A stretch of 48,265 bases of DNA. Source: Archaeoglobales archaeon. GTDB taxonomy: Archaea; Halobacteriota; Archaeoglobi; Archaeoglobales; Archaeoglobaceae. The notes beneath the pieces are model-generated. The model saw only the letters and a list, made by a program, of their open reading frames with translations. It was not told the origin of the DNA and made no database searches. Within the stretch, counting starts at the first letter, position 1; the number at the start of each line of letters is the position of its first letter. A program made the position numbers and the translations under genes. The stretch lies in NCBI GenBank assembly GCA_030055595.1, contig JASFYH010000012.1, positions 1 to 48,265 of the forward strand, given 5' to 3'. Shown piece after piece: positions 10,763-15,856 of the stretch.

Positions 10763-11623
10763 TCAAAAAGATTTCGAGAACTTACTTCGAATTTTGCAGA
10801 AAGAACAAATATCGCCACTCGCAATTTCACCACAGATCGAGCAATATCTCGTCTCTGAGGGCTTCTTAACTTCAACCGTAAGACCTCTGACGAAATTCTT
10901 CACGAACCCCGGCTTTTTTAGTTCAATATCGTAAACGATTTCCTTCCAATCAGGCTTCGGGGCATAGAGACATTCGCCAGACTTAAAAGGGAGCTTCTTG
11001 AGGATTGCATAGAGCATGTTCTCTTTCTCGCTAATCTCGAACAAAGGTCTCGCCCTTGCAACAACCTTGGCATCAAAAGGCTCTATTCTCGGCAAAAGCT
11101 TTTCAGCAAAAGCCTGCTGATTACCCGCGATGTTTTTAAGATAAAACGAAGCAATGTCCTCTGCGGTGTGCCCTGTTGCAACAACATCGAAGCCATTCTC
11201 TCTTGCAAATCTATTCATGATGTATCTCTTTGCGGTTCCACAGACGGAACAAACCCTTCCCCTTGCCTGAGGGATCGTGAAACCGTAATCTTTTAGCTCA
11301 ACAATGTTAAGCCTCACTTTGAGAAGATCTGATAGCTCCTCGACTTTTTGTTTTGAATCTCTTGAGTAATCACCAATTCCCAAGTCGATGTAGAGCATTT
11401 CAAACTCAAAGCCAATTTCTTTCAGAACAGAAGCCATTGCAGAGCTGTCCTTGCCACCAGAGACTGCCAGAAGAATTTGCTCTTCCTTACTAAGAATTTT
11501 ATATTTTTTTATCGATCTTTCAACAAGCCTTTTGTAGAATTCAACGTAGCAATCCGCACATAAGGAGATCCTGTAGGCTCTAAGATTTGCTACCGCCTTT
11601 TTACCGCATTTCTTGCATTTCAT
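10763..11623 (-). CDS. TtuA/NcsA-family tRNA 2-thiouridine synthetase (TIGR00269 type)
   Basis: The 286-aa PP-loop enzyme adenylates a tRNA uridine for sulfur insertion. It has an N-terminal zinc ribbon (Cys3, Cys6, Cys22, Cys25), the PP-loop SGGKDS (55-60), the cysteines VCSVC (125 and 128) that with a third Cys in GECLYAP would bind a [4Fe-4S] cluster, and a C-terminal zinc ribbon (CSICGE and CSFC). It overlaps the site-2 protease gene by 4 nt. Whether it acts at tRNA position 54 (TtuA) or 34 (NcsA) cannot be decided from sequence alone. Confidence 0.9.
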   Translation of the reverse strand: MKCKKCGKKAVANLRAYRISLCADCYVEFYKRLVERSIKKYKILSKEEQILLAVSGGKDSSAMASVLKEIGFEFEMLYIDLGIGDYSRDSKQKVEELSDLLKVRLNIVELKDYGFTIPQARGRVCSVCGTAKRYIMNRFARENGFDVVATGHTAEDIASFYLKNIAGNQQAFAEKLLPRIEPFDAKVVARARPLFEISEKENMLYAILKKLPFKSGECLYAPKPDWKEIVYDIELKKPGFVKNFVRGLTVEVKKPSETRYCSICGEIASGDICSFCKIRSKFSKSF

Positions 11624-13101
11624 AGTCCTAAAAGTCTTAAGTTTGGAATTAGGACCATCATTGCTAAGGAGAAGAAAATGAAAACCGCAAAGAACTTTGC
11701 AATTTGCATCGAAACTCTTTCCGCTTTATCTCCAAACCTCCTCGAAAGCATTCCTGAGAATGTCTCATGAAAGACTCTGCCTCCATCAAGTGGTATTGCT
11801 GGAAGGCAGTTAAAAAGTCCAACCCAGAAATTGATCCAAGCGATCCAGTATAGGGAATTAAGGAGCCAGAAAACGTATGGGGGATTATCGAAGAAGTTCT
11901 CCATTCCAGTAAACCCTTGGAAGGTAAAAGGCAGAGAGATTACCAAGAGCCATCCAACTGGATCTTTTAGGGAAGCGGGAATACTTTTAAGGTTCTTTAA
12001 GATCTCGTTGGAGTTGTAAAAGTTAAGTCCTCCGATGCACTCTAACTGGCTCACGTAAACACCCATAAAAGCTCTCCCGTTCTTATCTGCAAGCGTCAGA
12101 TTGAAGATCTTGAATTCTTTTAGTTCGCTGTCGTAAACCTCTACTGAAATGCTTTGTCCGGGCTTCTTTTTCTGCATTTCTCTGTTGAAATCCATGGGAC
12201 TGCTAACGAGAACATCATCGATCTTTGTAATCATCATGCCTCCTTTTATGCCCGCAATTTCTGCTGGAAAAGTTCTGTTTTCCTCTTTATAAAGTCCAGA
12301 AAGCTTTACTCCCCTGACTCCCAAAAAAGTCATTAAATGTTCTCCTGACTCATTTTTGAGGGTAAGAGTGTTCATTTGATAGGGTTTGACCAAATCACTA
12401 ATTCCGTCCTTTACCGCTACACCATTTACCTCTAAGACTTGCCCAATGGATTTCCCGCTGTCATCGACAACGCTGTTCGTCGGATTTAGGAGCGATAAGC
12501 CGTTAAAGAATGCTATAAATGCCAAAAAAGCAACAATGAAGTTGCTGATCACACCAATAGAAAAAACTCTTATTCTTGAGATTCTTCTTGTTTTTTTGTC
12601 AAATAGCTCTGTCTCGTCTGGCTCTGCAAAGGCTCCTATAGGCACCAAGGCAAGTATAATCCCAAGAGACTTCACCTTAATTCCTTCAACTCTACATAGA
12701 ACCGCATGGCTTACTTCATGCACAACAAGAGTTACAAGCAAGCCGATAAGTCCCCAGATTAGCGGGATAAATGGATTAACTCCCGGAATGAGCAAAGCTG
12801 CTTGCGGACTCGTCAGTTCAGAGGGTTCTGGAGGATATATTACCATTATGTAGTCCGCAATTATTACAAGTGCAACCATGAAAGCCATGCCAAAGAAGAC
12901 CGCGGGTAAGCCAAGATCCGCTATTAACTTCCAGAATCTCTTTGCCTTCGAGATTTTTTCAATCGTATTTAGCCCTTTGCTAGTTCTTAGCATCAAAATG
13001 GGTCCATAGTTTTTCATCCCGAACTTCTGGAGAGTTCCAGTTTTGTTTAGAACTTCAAGAAATGTCCAGTAGATCAGAAATAGAAGCAGTAACCAGAGCA
13101 T
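11620..13101 (-). CDS. Site-2 protease family membrane metalloprotease with PDZ domain
   Basis: The 493-aa membrane protein has an N-terminal helix, HEVSH at 128-132 (zinc-binding HExxH) inside a membrane helix, and LDGGRVF at 438-444 supplying the third zinc ligand Asp439. Between the two catalytic parts lies a periplasmic-side PDZ-like region (EIAGIKGGMMITKIDDVLVS). This is the archaeal S2P architecture for regulated intramembrane proteolysis. It follows the S27e gene by 34 nt on the same strand and overlaps the thiouridine synthetase gene. Substrate is unknown. Confidence 0.9.
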   Translation of the reverse strand: MLWLLLLFLIYWTFLEVLNKTGTLQKFGMKNYGPILMLRTSKGLNTIEKISKAKRFWKLIADLGLPAVFFGMAFMVALVIIADYIMVIYPPEPSELTSPQAALLIPGVNPFIPLIWGLIGLLVTLVVHEVSHAVLCRVEGIKVKSLGIILALVPIGAFAEPDETELFDKKTRRISRIRVFSIGVISNFIVAFLAFIAFFNGLSLLNPTNSVVDDSGKSIGQVLEVNGVAVKDGISDLVKPYQMNTLTLKNESGEHLMTFLGVRGVKLSGLYKEENRTFPAEIAGIKGGMMITKIDDVLVSSPMDFNREMQKKKPGQSISVEVYDSELKEFKIFNLTLADKNGRAFMGVYVSQLECIGGLNFYNSNEILKNLKSIPASLKDPVGWLLVISLPFTFQGFTGMENFFDNPPYVFWLLNSLYWIAWINFWVGLFNCLPAIPLDGGRVFHETFSGMLSRRFGDKAERVSMQIAKFFAVFIFFSLAMMVLIPNLRLLGL

Positions 13102-13313: not shown

Positions 13314-13595
13314 TCACCTCTCTATAAACTCGAACCTCTTAGCCCTCCATGTTGGTCTTGTGTGAGCCTTCTTGCAAACTGTGCATCTGAACCTTATGTT
13401 TACTCTCTTTGTTGGCTTGTCTCCGCCGGGAACTTTGCTGAACTTGCCTAAATTACCGACTTTACCCCTTCTTCTCTTCTGCCTATTGATCCATTTAAGC
13501 TGGCTCGGTCTACCCTTGCCAACTTTCTCAACCTCGTGAAGAGTGTGCTTCCTGCAAACTCTGCAATAGGTCATAACCTTCTTTGGATACTTCAT
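13314..13595 (-). CDS. rpl44e: 50S ribosomal protein L44e
   Basis: The 93-aa large-subunit protein begins [18 protein letters not shown] and carries a zinc site formed by Cys11, Cys14 and the pair in [11 protein letters not shown]. The basic centre ([19 protein letters not shown]) contacts 23S rRNA. It overlaps the GINS gene by 4 nt upstream and is coupled to S27e downstream, forming a GINS15-L44e-S27e run that links replication and translation genes, a typical archaeal gene order. Confidence 0.96.
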
Positions 13596-14098
13596 CCTTT
13601 CACCTCGATCCTTTCAGCAACTCCACTTTTTATGAGCACTTCAGCATTCTCCGCTGGTAGAGTAGCGACATCTTCCCTTCTCAATTTATATCTTTTTCCA
13701 TCCACTCCAAGGATTTCCACATCTTTTTTAATTCTGACAAGAACTTTCTCCAACTTTTCTGTTTTCTTCTCAAAAACCTTCCTACGGAATTCGGTTATAA
13801 CTTCAACAAGAGTTCTAAAAAATTCTCTCTCCAAGGAACTCATATTTTCCTCATTCAAACCAACTTCCTGTCCGCAAACTTCAGCCCATGCTGCGTTTAT
13901 GATCTTTCCAGTTCGAAGCTCAAAGATCTTTTTCTGCAAGCGTTTTAAGGCTCTGATTTCGTCCTCCACTCTCTCGTTATCCTCTTTAAGCGTTTCAAGT
14001 TCCTCGATCCTCTTTCTTATTCTCTCATATAGATCTTCGTCAATTTTTGCCAATTGGGATCTGTTTTTTTCAATGATCGTAAGCAGTTCTTCAATCAT
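13592..14098 (-). CDS. DNA replication factor GINS, Gins15/Gins51 subunit
   Basis: The 168-aa protein has a helical A domain (residues 1-110: [17 protein letters not shown], then [12 protein letters not shown] matching the LFexRxxKI signature) followed by the small beta B domain at the C-terminus ([20 protein letters not shown] and [20 protein letters not shown]). The A-then-B order is that of Gins15/51, part of the CMG helicase with MCM and GAN/Cdc45. A TATA-like TGTTTAAAGC about 25 nt upstream suggests its own promoter. It overlaps the L44e gene by 4 nt. Confidence 0.88.
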
Positions 14099-14122: not shown

Positions 14123-14809
14123 TTAAACATTACTTAAATTCGACGACTTGAATATTTCATATATTAAAATACCACTTGCAACAGATAAATTCAGCGAACC
14201 AACCTTTCCACGCCCGGGGATCTTTACGATCTGGTCACATAATTTCTTTACTCCCGCGGAGATCCCTCTGTCTTCGCCACCAACCACAATCGCAACTGGA
14301 GGACTTAATGAAACCTCTCTAAGATCCTTTCCGTCCAGATCAGCACCAATAACGAGGAAACCGATCTCCTTAAGCTTTTTTAATGGCTTCACAAGATTAT
14401 CTTCGCTTGCGATTTTAACATGGAACACCGCCCCCATCGAAGCTCTAACGACTCCTTCAGTTATTTGAACCGCTCTCCTCCTCTTTATGACAACTCCAGC
14501 ACAGCCAAAGAATTCAGCAGTTCGAATGCATGCTCCCAAATTCTGCGGATCGTTAACATTGTCAAGCACGAGTATAAAACTATTTTCCGCAATAGCCTTT
14601 TTTGCGATCGTTTCGAGACTTGTATATTTTACAGGGCTAACTTCCGCACAGATCTTCTCTGGAACCCTTGCTCTGTAAACAGGGATCTTCATTTTTCTTG
14701 CAATCTCCACGATCTCCATGATCTTGGGATTCTCTGAGTTATAGTAGATCTTACTAACCCTTCCAGACTTCAACGCTTCCAAAACACTGTTCGCACCGCA
14801 GATCCTCAT
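14123..14809 (-). CDS. SPOUT (TrmH/RlmB-type) rRNA 2'-O-methyltransferase
   Basis: The 228-aa protein starts MRICGANSVLEALKSG, the usual RlmB/TrmH N-terminal substrate-binding domain. The SPOUT motifs follow: DNVNDPQNLGACIRTAEFFG (motif 1, Asn/Arg), VVGGEDRGIS (motif 2) and IPGRGKVGSLNLSVASGILI (motif 3, trefoil knot). It would methylate a ribose in rRNA or tRNA using S-adenosylmethionine. The frame continues upstream to a TTG at 14899, but I chose the ATG at 14809. It has the Shine-Dalgarno AAGTGAT 3 nt upstream, matches the family start, and the extra 30 codons coincide with the H/ACA RNA at 14822-14880. Confidence 0.87.
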   Translation of the reverse strand: MRICGANSVLEALKSGRVSKIYYNSENPKIMEIVEIARKMKIPVYRARVPEKICAEVSPVKYTSLETIAKKAIAENSFILVLDNVNDPQNLGACIRTAEFFGCAGVVIKRRRAVQITEGVVRASMGAVFHVKIASEDNLVKPLKKLKEIGFLVIGADLDGKDLREVSLSPPVAIVVGGEDRGISAGVKKLCDQIVKIPGRGKVGSLNLSVASGILIYEIFKSSNLSNV

Positions 14810-14821
14810 AAAATCACTTAC

Positions 14822-14880
14822 TGTCGCTCCACCAACCGACCCGAGATCATGCTTTTCACTCGGGTGTGAGAGGTGGAGCA
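14822..14880 (-). ncRNA. H/ACA guide RNA (predicted pseudouridylation of 23S rRNA)
   Basis: The minus strand folds as a one-hairpin archaeal H/ACA RNA. The lower stem pairs UGCUCCACC (14880-14872) with GGUGGAGCG (14833-14825), and ACA follows at once (14824-14822). The internal pocket has left arm UCUCAC (14871-14866) and right arm CGGUU (14838-14834). The upper stem is ACCCGAG/CUCGGGU, and the loop has U-U, G-A and A-G pairs (UGA...GAU), an L7Ae-type K-loop. From pocket top to ACA there are 14 nt, as the family requires. The arms pair with GACCG-UC-GUGAGA (one G-U pair), which I recall as the conserved archaeal 23S sequence near the peptidyl transferase centre, modifying its U. The TATA-like box at 14898-14909 is 25 nt before the 5' end. 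Confidence 0.88.
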
Positions 14881-14897
14881 GATCCATTTCTATTAAC

Positions 14898-14928
14898 AAC
14901 TTAAAAAACTTTGTGGCATATTTAAAAA
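14898..14928. promoter_or_regulatory. Divergent promoter region for the H/ACA-methyltransferase transcript and the MBL gene
   Basis: ATATTTAAAAA at 14918-14928 is a TATA box about 27 nt before the ATG at 14951 on the plus strand, so the MBL mRNA would be leaderless; read on the minus strand it is TTTTTAAATAT. A second minus-strand box, GTTTTTTAAGTTG (about 14898-14910), lies about 25 nt before 14880, exactly where the H/ACA hairpin begins. Which of the two serves the minus transcript is not decided. Confidence 0.6.
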
Positions 14929-14950
14929 CCGCCCCAATCTTTGAGACGGT

Positions 14951-15856
14951 ATGGAAATTGAAACATTAGCACTTGAAATTCCATTTGCGAAACCAGATCT
15001 TGTTTACGTTTACTTCATAGACTCTGAGATCATGATCGACGGTGGTTTTTGTTCTCAAGAGCATGCGGACAAAATTTCAGAGTTCGAGCCAAAGGGAGTT
15101 CTTATAACCCATCATCATGTTGATCATGTCGGCTATCTGTTCTTTTCAGAGATCGAGAGTTATTTGCATCCCATAGAGAGAAGACTAATTGAAATTTACG
15201 AAAAACCTCAGATCTTCTTAGAGAGGCAATACCAGATCTGCAGGAAATTCGGAATTCCAATAGAATATCCAAAAACTCTTGAAATTTTATCATCGCTGAA
15301 ATTAAATATTCTTTCAAAGATCTCAGAGTTAAAAGAGCAAAACTTCGGTTTTAAGCCCATACATGTCCCCGGGCACACTCCCGGACACACGTGTTTCTAT
15401 AGAGACAATGCATTATTTTCAGGCGATGCAATTCTTAGTGAGACAACACCGAATCTTGGGCTATATCTTGATTATCCATACGGGGTCGAGGACTATTTGA
15501 GAGCGCTAAGAGAGCTCAGAAAGTTGGAGATCGAGGTGATCTATCCCGCACATGAAAAGAGGATCTATGATGTTGTAGAAAGGATCGACAGTTTAATAGA
15601 GCACTATACTCAAAGAACAATTGAAGTGCTCGAGATTTTGGATTATAAGCCAATGCTTGCTGAGGATGTAGCTAAAGAGATCGAATGGGCTGAAGGGAGG
15701 TATGAAGATCTAAACCCGTTTGATCGCTATCTCGCACTTCTCGAAACACTTTCATATCTTAGATCTTTGGAGAAGAAAGGATTTGTTAAATCCACTGGCA
15801 ATCCCACGGTTTTTTTGAAGATCAGGTCTTTTCACTGCCAAAAAGAAGAGATCTAA
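14951..15856 (+). CDS. MBL-fold hydrolase with C-terminal winged-helix domain
   Basis: The 301-aa protein has THHHVDHVG at 53-61 (zinc motif HxHxDH = His54, His56, Asp58, His59), HVPGHTPGHTCFY near 137-149 and FSGDAIL just after, all typical of glyoxalase II-like hydrolases, and AHEKR near 198. Residues 215-300 form a small winged-helix region (MLAEDVAKEIEWAEGRYEDL, then LRSLEKKGFVKSTGNPTVF), as in the LACTB2/BLACT-WH group. The substrate is probably a thioester or a phosphoester but is not known. Leaderless start from the TATA box at 14918. Its last 35 nt overlap the end of the convergent sensor gene. Confidence 0.85.
   Translation: MEIETLALEIPFAKPDLVYVYFIDSEIMIDGGFCSQEHADKISEFEPKGVLITHHHVDHVGYLFFSEIESYLHPIERRLIEIYEKPQIFLERQYQICRKFGIPIEYPKTLEILSSLKLNILSKISELKEQNFGFKPIHVPGHTPGHTCFYRDNALFSGDAILSETTPNLGLYLDYPYGVEDYLRALRELRKLEIEVIYPAHEKRIYDVVERIDSLIEHYTQRTIEVLEILDYKPMLAEDVAKEIEWAEGRYEDLNPFDRYLALLETLSYLRSLEKKGFVKSTGNPTVFLKIRSFHCQKEEI

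Follow-up and report, generated by a model that had tools for sequence, protein, structure and literature searches.

The window, a 48,265-nt stretch of DNA from an Archaeoglobales archaeon (contig JASFYH010000012.1 of assembly GCA_030055595.1), contained a 59-nt hairpin RNA on its minus strand, followed in the same direction by genes for an RlmB-like methyltransferase, GINS51, ribosomal protein L44e and an M50 peptidase (Table 1). The ATG of the methyltransferase lay 12 nt behind the ACA box of the RNA. From this codon, the protein scored 213.2 bits against the RlmB model TIGR00186, above the equivalog cut-off of 160.15, and both SpoU domains (catalytic and substrate-binding) were present. In bacteria, RlmB methylates G2251. 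On the other side of the RNA, a TATA-like atatttaaaa was found within 14918-14951. Its distance of about 28 nt from the first codon of the divergent metallo-beta-lactamase-fold gene suggests a leaderless transcript for this gene, back to back with the predicted guide RNA promoter.

Table 1. Features of the guide RNA locus, in window coordinates.
Feature	Position	Strand	Basis
H/ACA guide RNA, Pab91 ortholog (most likely Afu-46)	14822..14880	minus	fold, Rfam match, covariation, target
Lower stem, 5' strand UGCUCCACC, 9 nt	14872..14880	minus	sequence and covariation
Pocket 5' guide arm UCUCAC, 6 nt; partner GUGAGA of 23S	14866..14871	minus	sequence, 23S site, duplex energy
K-loop UGAAAAGCAUGAU, 13 nt; U-U, G-A and A-G pairs; predicted L7Ae site	14846..14858	minus	sequence, invariant columns
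Pocket 3' guide arm CGGUU, 5 nt; partner GACCG of 23S	14834..14838	minus	sequence, duplex
Lower stem, 3' strand GGUGGAGCG, 9 nt	14825..14833	minus	sequence and covariation
ACA box	14822..14824	minus	invariant in 35 sequences
Shine-Dalgarno-like GUGAUU, between ACA and start codon	14812..14817	minus	6-bp duplex with 16S 3' end
BRE/TATA element CCACAAAGTTTTT, predicted promoter of RNA and operon	14904..14916	minus	de novo motif, score 12.0; starts 36 nt upstream of RNA
RlmB-like SpoU/TrmH 2'-O-methyltransferase, ATG at 14809 (MRICG...)	14123..14809	minus	profiles; start fixed by relatives
GINS51 (Sld5/Gins51_C), downstream operon gene	13592..14098	minus	domains, conserved order
Ribosomal protein L44e, downstream operon gene	13314..13595	minus	domains, conserved order
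PDZ-domain M50 peptidase, following gene	11620..13101	minus	domains, order conserved in relatives
Divergent metallo-beta-lactamase-fold gene	14951..15856	plus	domains; adjoins RNA also in G054

Read from the minus strand (14880 to 14822), the RNA had the order UGCUCCACC-UCUCAC-ACCCGAG-UGAAAAGCAUGAU-CUCGGGU-CGGUU-GGUGGAGCG-ACA. It thus combined a hairpin, a pocket and an ACA box; the 7-bp upper stem (ACCCGAG/CUCGGGU) was capped by the U-U, G-A and A-G pairs of a K-loop with tandem G-A, the pocket was complementary to rRNA with U-N left unpaired, and the ACA box lay 14 nt from the pocket/upper stem. Productive archaeal H/ACA folds have a 10-layer GA stem, a 3' arm of 5 or 6 and a lower stem of 9, with the ACA at a distance of 14-15 nt (PMC4652768), and the window RNA had this 10/5/9 fold with a 6/5 pocket. 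Its folding energy was -28.0 kcal/mol, compared with -16.9 +/- 2.9 kcal/mol in shuffled sequences (z = -3.9), and none of 200 shuffles folded as well. The 5' arm formed 6 bp with its 23S partner (UCUCAC:GUGAGA, -6.6 kcal/mol) and the 3' arm formed 5 bp (CGGUU:GACCG), one of them U-G.

Homologues of the RNA were found by BLASTN in 43 of the 59 Archaeoglobi genomes. Further copies, in G020, G021, G022 and G032, were detected with a covariance model based on 35 distinct sequences of the RNA. No copy was detected outside Archaeoglobi when the model was run on a 295-genome sample of the phylum, under stricter filters that make this weak evidence of absence. Among the 35 distinct homologues, 97.5% of stem cells were paired, compared with 90.9% in shuffles; 9 of the 16 pairs had changes on both sides (4.3 in shuffles), amounting to 40 such cells. 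None of 500 shuffles matched the paired fraction, the number of double-changed pairs or the number of double-changed cells, and the signal was lost when the partner strand was slid. The UGA...UGA columns of the K-loop were invariant across the 35 aligned sequences, and L7Ae is predicted to bind there. The first-pass annotation had proposed an H/ACA RNA from the sequence and had named a lack of compensatory changes in the stems of related genomes among the findings that would refute it. These changes were found, and structure, stem covariation and family match (below) agreed; as far as comparative sequence analysis goes, the hairpin is confirmed as a real archaeal H/ACA guide RNA. The alternative that it is a chance or terminator-like structure is contradicted by the family match, the target match and the covariation, and can be set aside. 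Two departures were seen within the class: in the six genomes of genus g3 (G009-G014) no copy was found and the 23S target was present in at least three, the RNA being either lost or too diverged; in the g8 genomes (L032, L033) the 5' arm was UCCCAC, with an internal mismatch to an unchanged 23S site and a duplex of -1.8 vs -6.6 kcal/mol.

The window RNA had no Rfam match at gathering threshold. When an E-value threshold was used, Pab91 (RF02795) aligned with it end to end at 46.2 bits (E = 5.5e-8); the gathering cut-off of this family is 71, and the RNA is consequently not filed under it. The covariance-model search that the first-pass annotation had proposed therefore returned a specific family, below that family's own cut-off. 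Both RNAs have the 10/5/9 fold, the 6/5 pocket, the arms UCUCAC/CGGUY (identical except at the final position of the 3' arm) and the target sequence in common. They differ in their stem sequences, in the loop, which is 2 nt longer in the window RNA, and in the position of the window RNA as the likely leader of a gene. Because pocket, fold and target agree, we regard the two as orthologs. In P. abyssi 23S rRNA, Pab91 is the guide for psi2685, which lies in the peptidyl transferase region (PMC6138745; PMC4652768).

The 23S site complementary to the pocket is GACCG-U-C-GUGAGA. This site (GACCGTCGTGAGA) was present exactly in 30 of the 59 genomes, as a single copy in all of these but one, and lay within 23S sequence in every case inspected. 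No 23S was detectable in the window's own assembly (RF02540 search); the nearest relatives that have one, G052 and G053, both carried the site. The target U corresponds to U2593 of E. coli, position 2685 of P. abyssi and position 2639 of A. fulgidus. The earlier proposal of a target at the E. coli 2593 equivalent, which would have failed had the 23S rRNA lacked the matching sequence, was thus borne out in the relatives. A sequence perfectly complementary to the two guide arms, AACCGTGGTGAGA, was also found in the window's own genome (G000:C11:131301-131313; L001 1501-1513). It lay in protein-coding open frames and was rejected as a 23S target; by our estimate about 0.4 such matches are expected by chance, and this one is probably a chance match.

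The same uridine has already been assigned a guide in A. fulgidus. Genome G001, which we take to be that of A. fulgidus, had a copy of the RNA at 413564-413622 that likewise matched Pab91, and the target U was position 2644 of its 23S, counted from the model start. Among 26 numbering offsets (-10 to +15), only +5 placed a U at each of the five published positions of A. fulgidus 23S (1364, 1970, 2601, 2639 and 2878), and with this offset L2639 was exactly the target U of the RNA family. The pseudouridine L2639 is published and assigned to Afu-46. Position 2685 of P. abyssi minus 2639 of A. fulgidus is 46 nt, the same gap as for 2016 and 1970, another published equivalent pair. Because L2639 coincides with the target U under the only consistent numbering, the RNA is most likely Afu-46 of A. 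fulgidus. The G001 copy has no adjacent methyltransferase gene. The first-pass annotation was right about the guide RNA, but neither the RNA nor its target is new, and the guide is a long-known one.

The order RNA, methyltransferase, GINS51, L44e, M50 peptidase was shared by the window's own genome (G000), G053, G052 and G046. The proposed pairing of guide and methyltransferase gene is thus real as an adjacency, but it is restricted to these four genomes of one genus; across the class the neighbours of the RNA vary widely, and elsewhere it stands without the methyltransferase gene. In G048 the operon had no RNA in front and the RNA was on another contig. In G054 the RNA had the divergent metallo-beta-lactamase gene beside it, and a search of that genome turned up no methyltransferase. 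Since G048 and G054 show them apart, the RNA and the operon are two separable units that were joined here. The linked arrangement has been kept although the methyltransferase has diverged to 69% identity. The methyltransferase tree grouped the four linked genomes and G048 at 100/99 and did not settle the order of G046 and G048; the linkage possibly arose once with G048 outside, or was lost in G048.

A BRE/TATA motif, CCGCAAAGCTTAA, was learned only from the upstream regions of 39 unlinked RNA homologues, where it almost always lay some 36 nt ahead of the RNA (median score 10.6). The same motif preceded the RNA in all four linked genomes, with scores of 7.5-12.0. By contrast, the motif scan found no BRE/TATA before the start of the linked methyltransferase gene (best score -1.7; shuffled median 0.4), whereas the methyltransferase gene of G048, which has no RNA in front, had a motif at -37 with a score of 6.65. 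A shared promoter is suggested by this pattern, with a single motif before the RNA, none before the linked methyltransferase and one in G048. As the first-pass annotation had noticed, a Shine-Dalgarno sequence follows the ACA box; a 6-bp duplex with the 16S 3' end was found in all four linked genomes (-4.8 to -7.7 kcal/mol), compared with a median of -0.3 in the flanks of unlinked RNAs, only 2 of 39 of which reached -3 or lower. On the simplest reading, the operon would have lost its own promoter and would now use that of the guide gene, with a Shine-Dalgarno site because its mRNA now begins with a leader. The suggestion of the first-pass annotation that guide and enzyme may share a transcript is indirectly supported, by the single promoter motif and the conserved Shine-Dalgarno site.

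The best explanation overall, to which we give a probability of about 0.8, is that a Pab91-type guide provides the promoter that drives the operon and that the guide forms the leader of the mRNA, likely as one transcript. The RNA would assemble with L7Ae, Cbf5, Nop10 and Gar1 into an RNP; the window's own genome has genes for Cbf5, Nop10 and L7Ae. The pocket would pair with GACCG and GUGAGA, and the U between them would be converted to pseudouridine. The operon would be read from the guide RNA promoter with the guide as the front end of the mRNA, and the methyltransferase would be translated from its ATG through the Shine-Dalgarno site just behind the ACA. A free 59-nt guide would require cleavage or termination just behind the ACA; presumably part of the transcripts would yield it by 3' trimming or by cleavage behind the RNP, and uncut transcripts would go to translation.

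The leader hairpin might in addition act as a cis-regulator, with L7Ae, or the complete RNP, assembling on the mRNA during its synthesis, covering the Shine-Dalgarno site, repressing the methyltransferase and coupling the amount of enzyme to the supply of RNP or rRNA. Such a role is plausible: L7Ae is a repressor of its own and other mRNAs, acting on K-turns in their leaders (PMC5539422), and overlap of a C/D sRNA with a 5' end reduces expression of the downstream gene (PMC7994747). The Shine-Dalgarno site began about 4 nt behind the ACA in all four linked genomes, and the locus resembles the L7Ae-repressed leaders in having a K-turn-type element in the leader, adjoining the Shine-Dalgarno site. 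It differs from them in that the element is a whole H/ACA guide conserved for another purpose. Against regulation, the linked RNAs had no features beyond those of their free-standing orthologs, the Shine-Dalgarno site being the only specific gain, and most genomes have the RNA without the gene, which means that its main role must be something other than regulation. We consider such cis-regulation unlikely. More improbable is the extended form, in which a fully functional guide doubles as leader, the guide for pseudouridine 2593 and a 2'-O-methylation enzyme acting on the same rRNA region come from a single transcript, and RNP assembly sets translation of the enzyme (and L44e). Regulatory coupling between guide and operon is, in general, speculative.

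A second alternative is neutral adjacency, in which the guide terminates after the ACA and the operon has an unrecognised promoter. The varied neighbours of the RNA across the class would fit such an accident, as would G049, where a tRNA-Lys gene lies behind the RNA instead. However, there was no BRE/TATA in front of the linked methyltransferase, the 12-nt spacer had at most four T in a row (runs were shorter in two of the four linked genomes), a Shine-Dalgarno site was present in each of them, and the arrangement outlasted the divergence of the protein. Simple adjacency is accordingly improbable. The operon may nevertheless be driven by a promoter that is weak or of an unusual type, or GINS51 and L44e may be served by one within the methyltransferase gene.

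The ORF list extended the methyltransferase frame 30 codons upstream, to a TTG at 14899, and a third alternative is that translation runs through the hairpin in this frame and the enzyme carries an N-terminal extension of 24-30 residues, possibly from a leaderless start. Each of the four linked genomes had the frame open; G052, G046 and G053 also had an in-frame ATG at -1, overlapping the first bases of the RNA. The window, however, has CTG in place of that ATG, and two of the three frames through the RNA are open anyway. Orthologs without the RNA start at the codon equivalent to 14809, alignments to the family profiles start at residue 3 of the short protein, and the Shine-Dalgarno site precedes the inner ATG in all four genomes. 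Because RNA-free relatives share the start codon and the RNA itself has open frames, the extension is best regarded as an artefact and was rejected, a translated leader being very improbable. The first-pass annotation had reached the same start, and a likely misannotated start codon is thereby corrected.

The preferred reading, a guide RNA serving as leader, has known parallels among C/D guides. Guide RNAs of this class overlap the 5' ends of ORFs in about 7% of those surveyed (PMC7994747), and C/D box sRNA genes that overlap or abut ORF 5' ends were described by Tripp et al. 2017, as summarized in PMC7994747. These cases resemble the locus in the window in having guide and mRNA on one transcript (predicted here) and a start codon that lies inside the guide or directly follows it; they differ in class and mostly have no promoter of their own. 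In the window, the predicted promoter comes from an H/ACA guide, which is paired with an rRNA methyltransferase operon. A non-exhaustive literature search found no description of an H/ACA guide at the start of a gene, and we regard the arrangement as a modest variant, since C/D guides at gene starts are known. It is a natural case in which a guide-RNA gene apparently provides the promoter for an operon that includes essential genes, while a sister species has the operon without the guide. It also raises the testable questions of how an archaeal H/ACA RNA embedded in an mRNA acquires its 3' end, and whether RNP assembly on the leader controls translation.

A different fusion was observed in G049, a genome in the same genus. 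The ortholog there (L103; G049:C29:23475-23534 minus) was followed 4 nt later, on the same strand, by tRNA-Lys(CTT) (L103 1498-1571 minus). In this case RNase P is the likely maker of the guide 3' end, and the fusion to tRNA-Lys offers a parallel case for tolerance of guide-RNA fusions.
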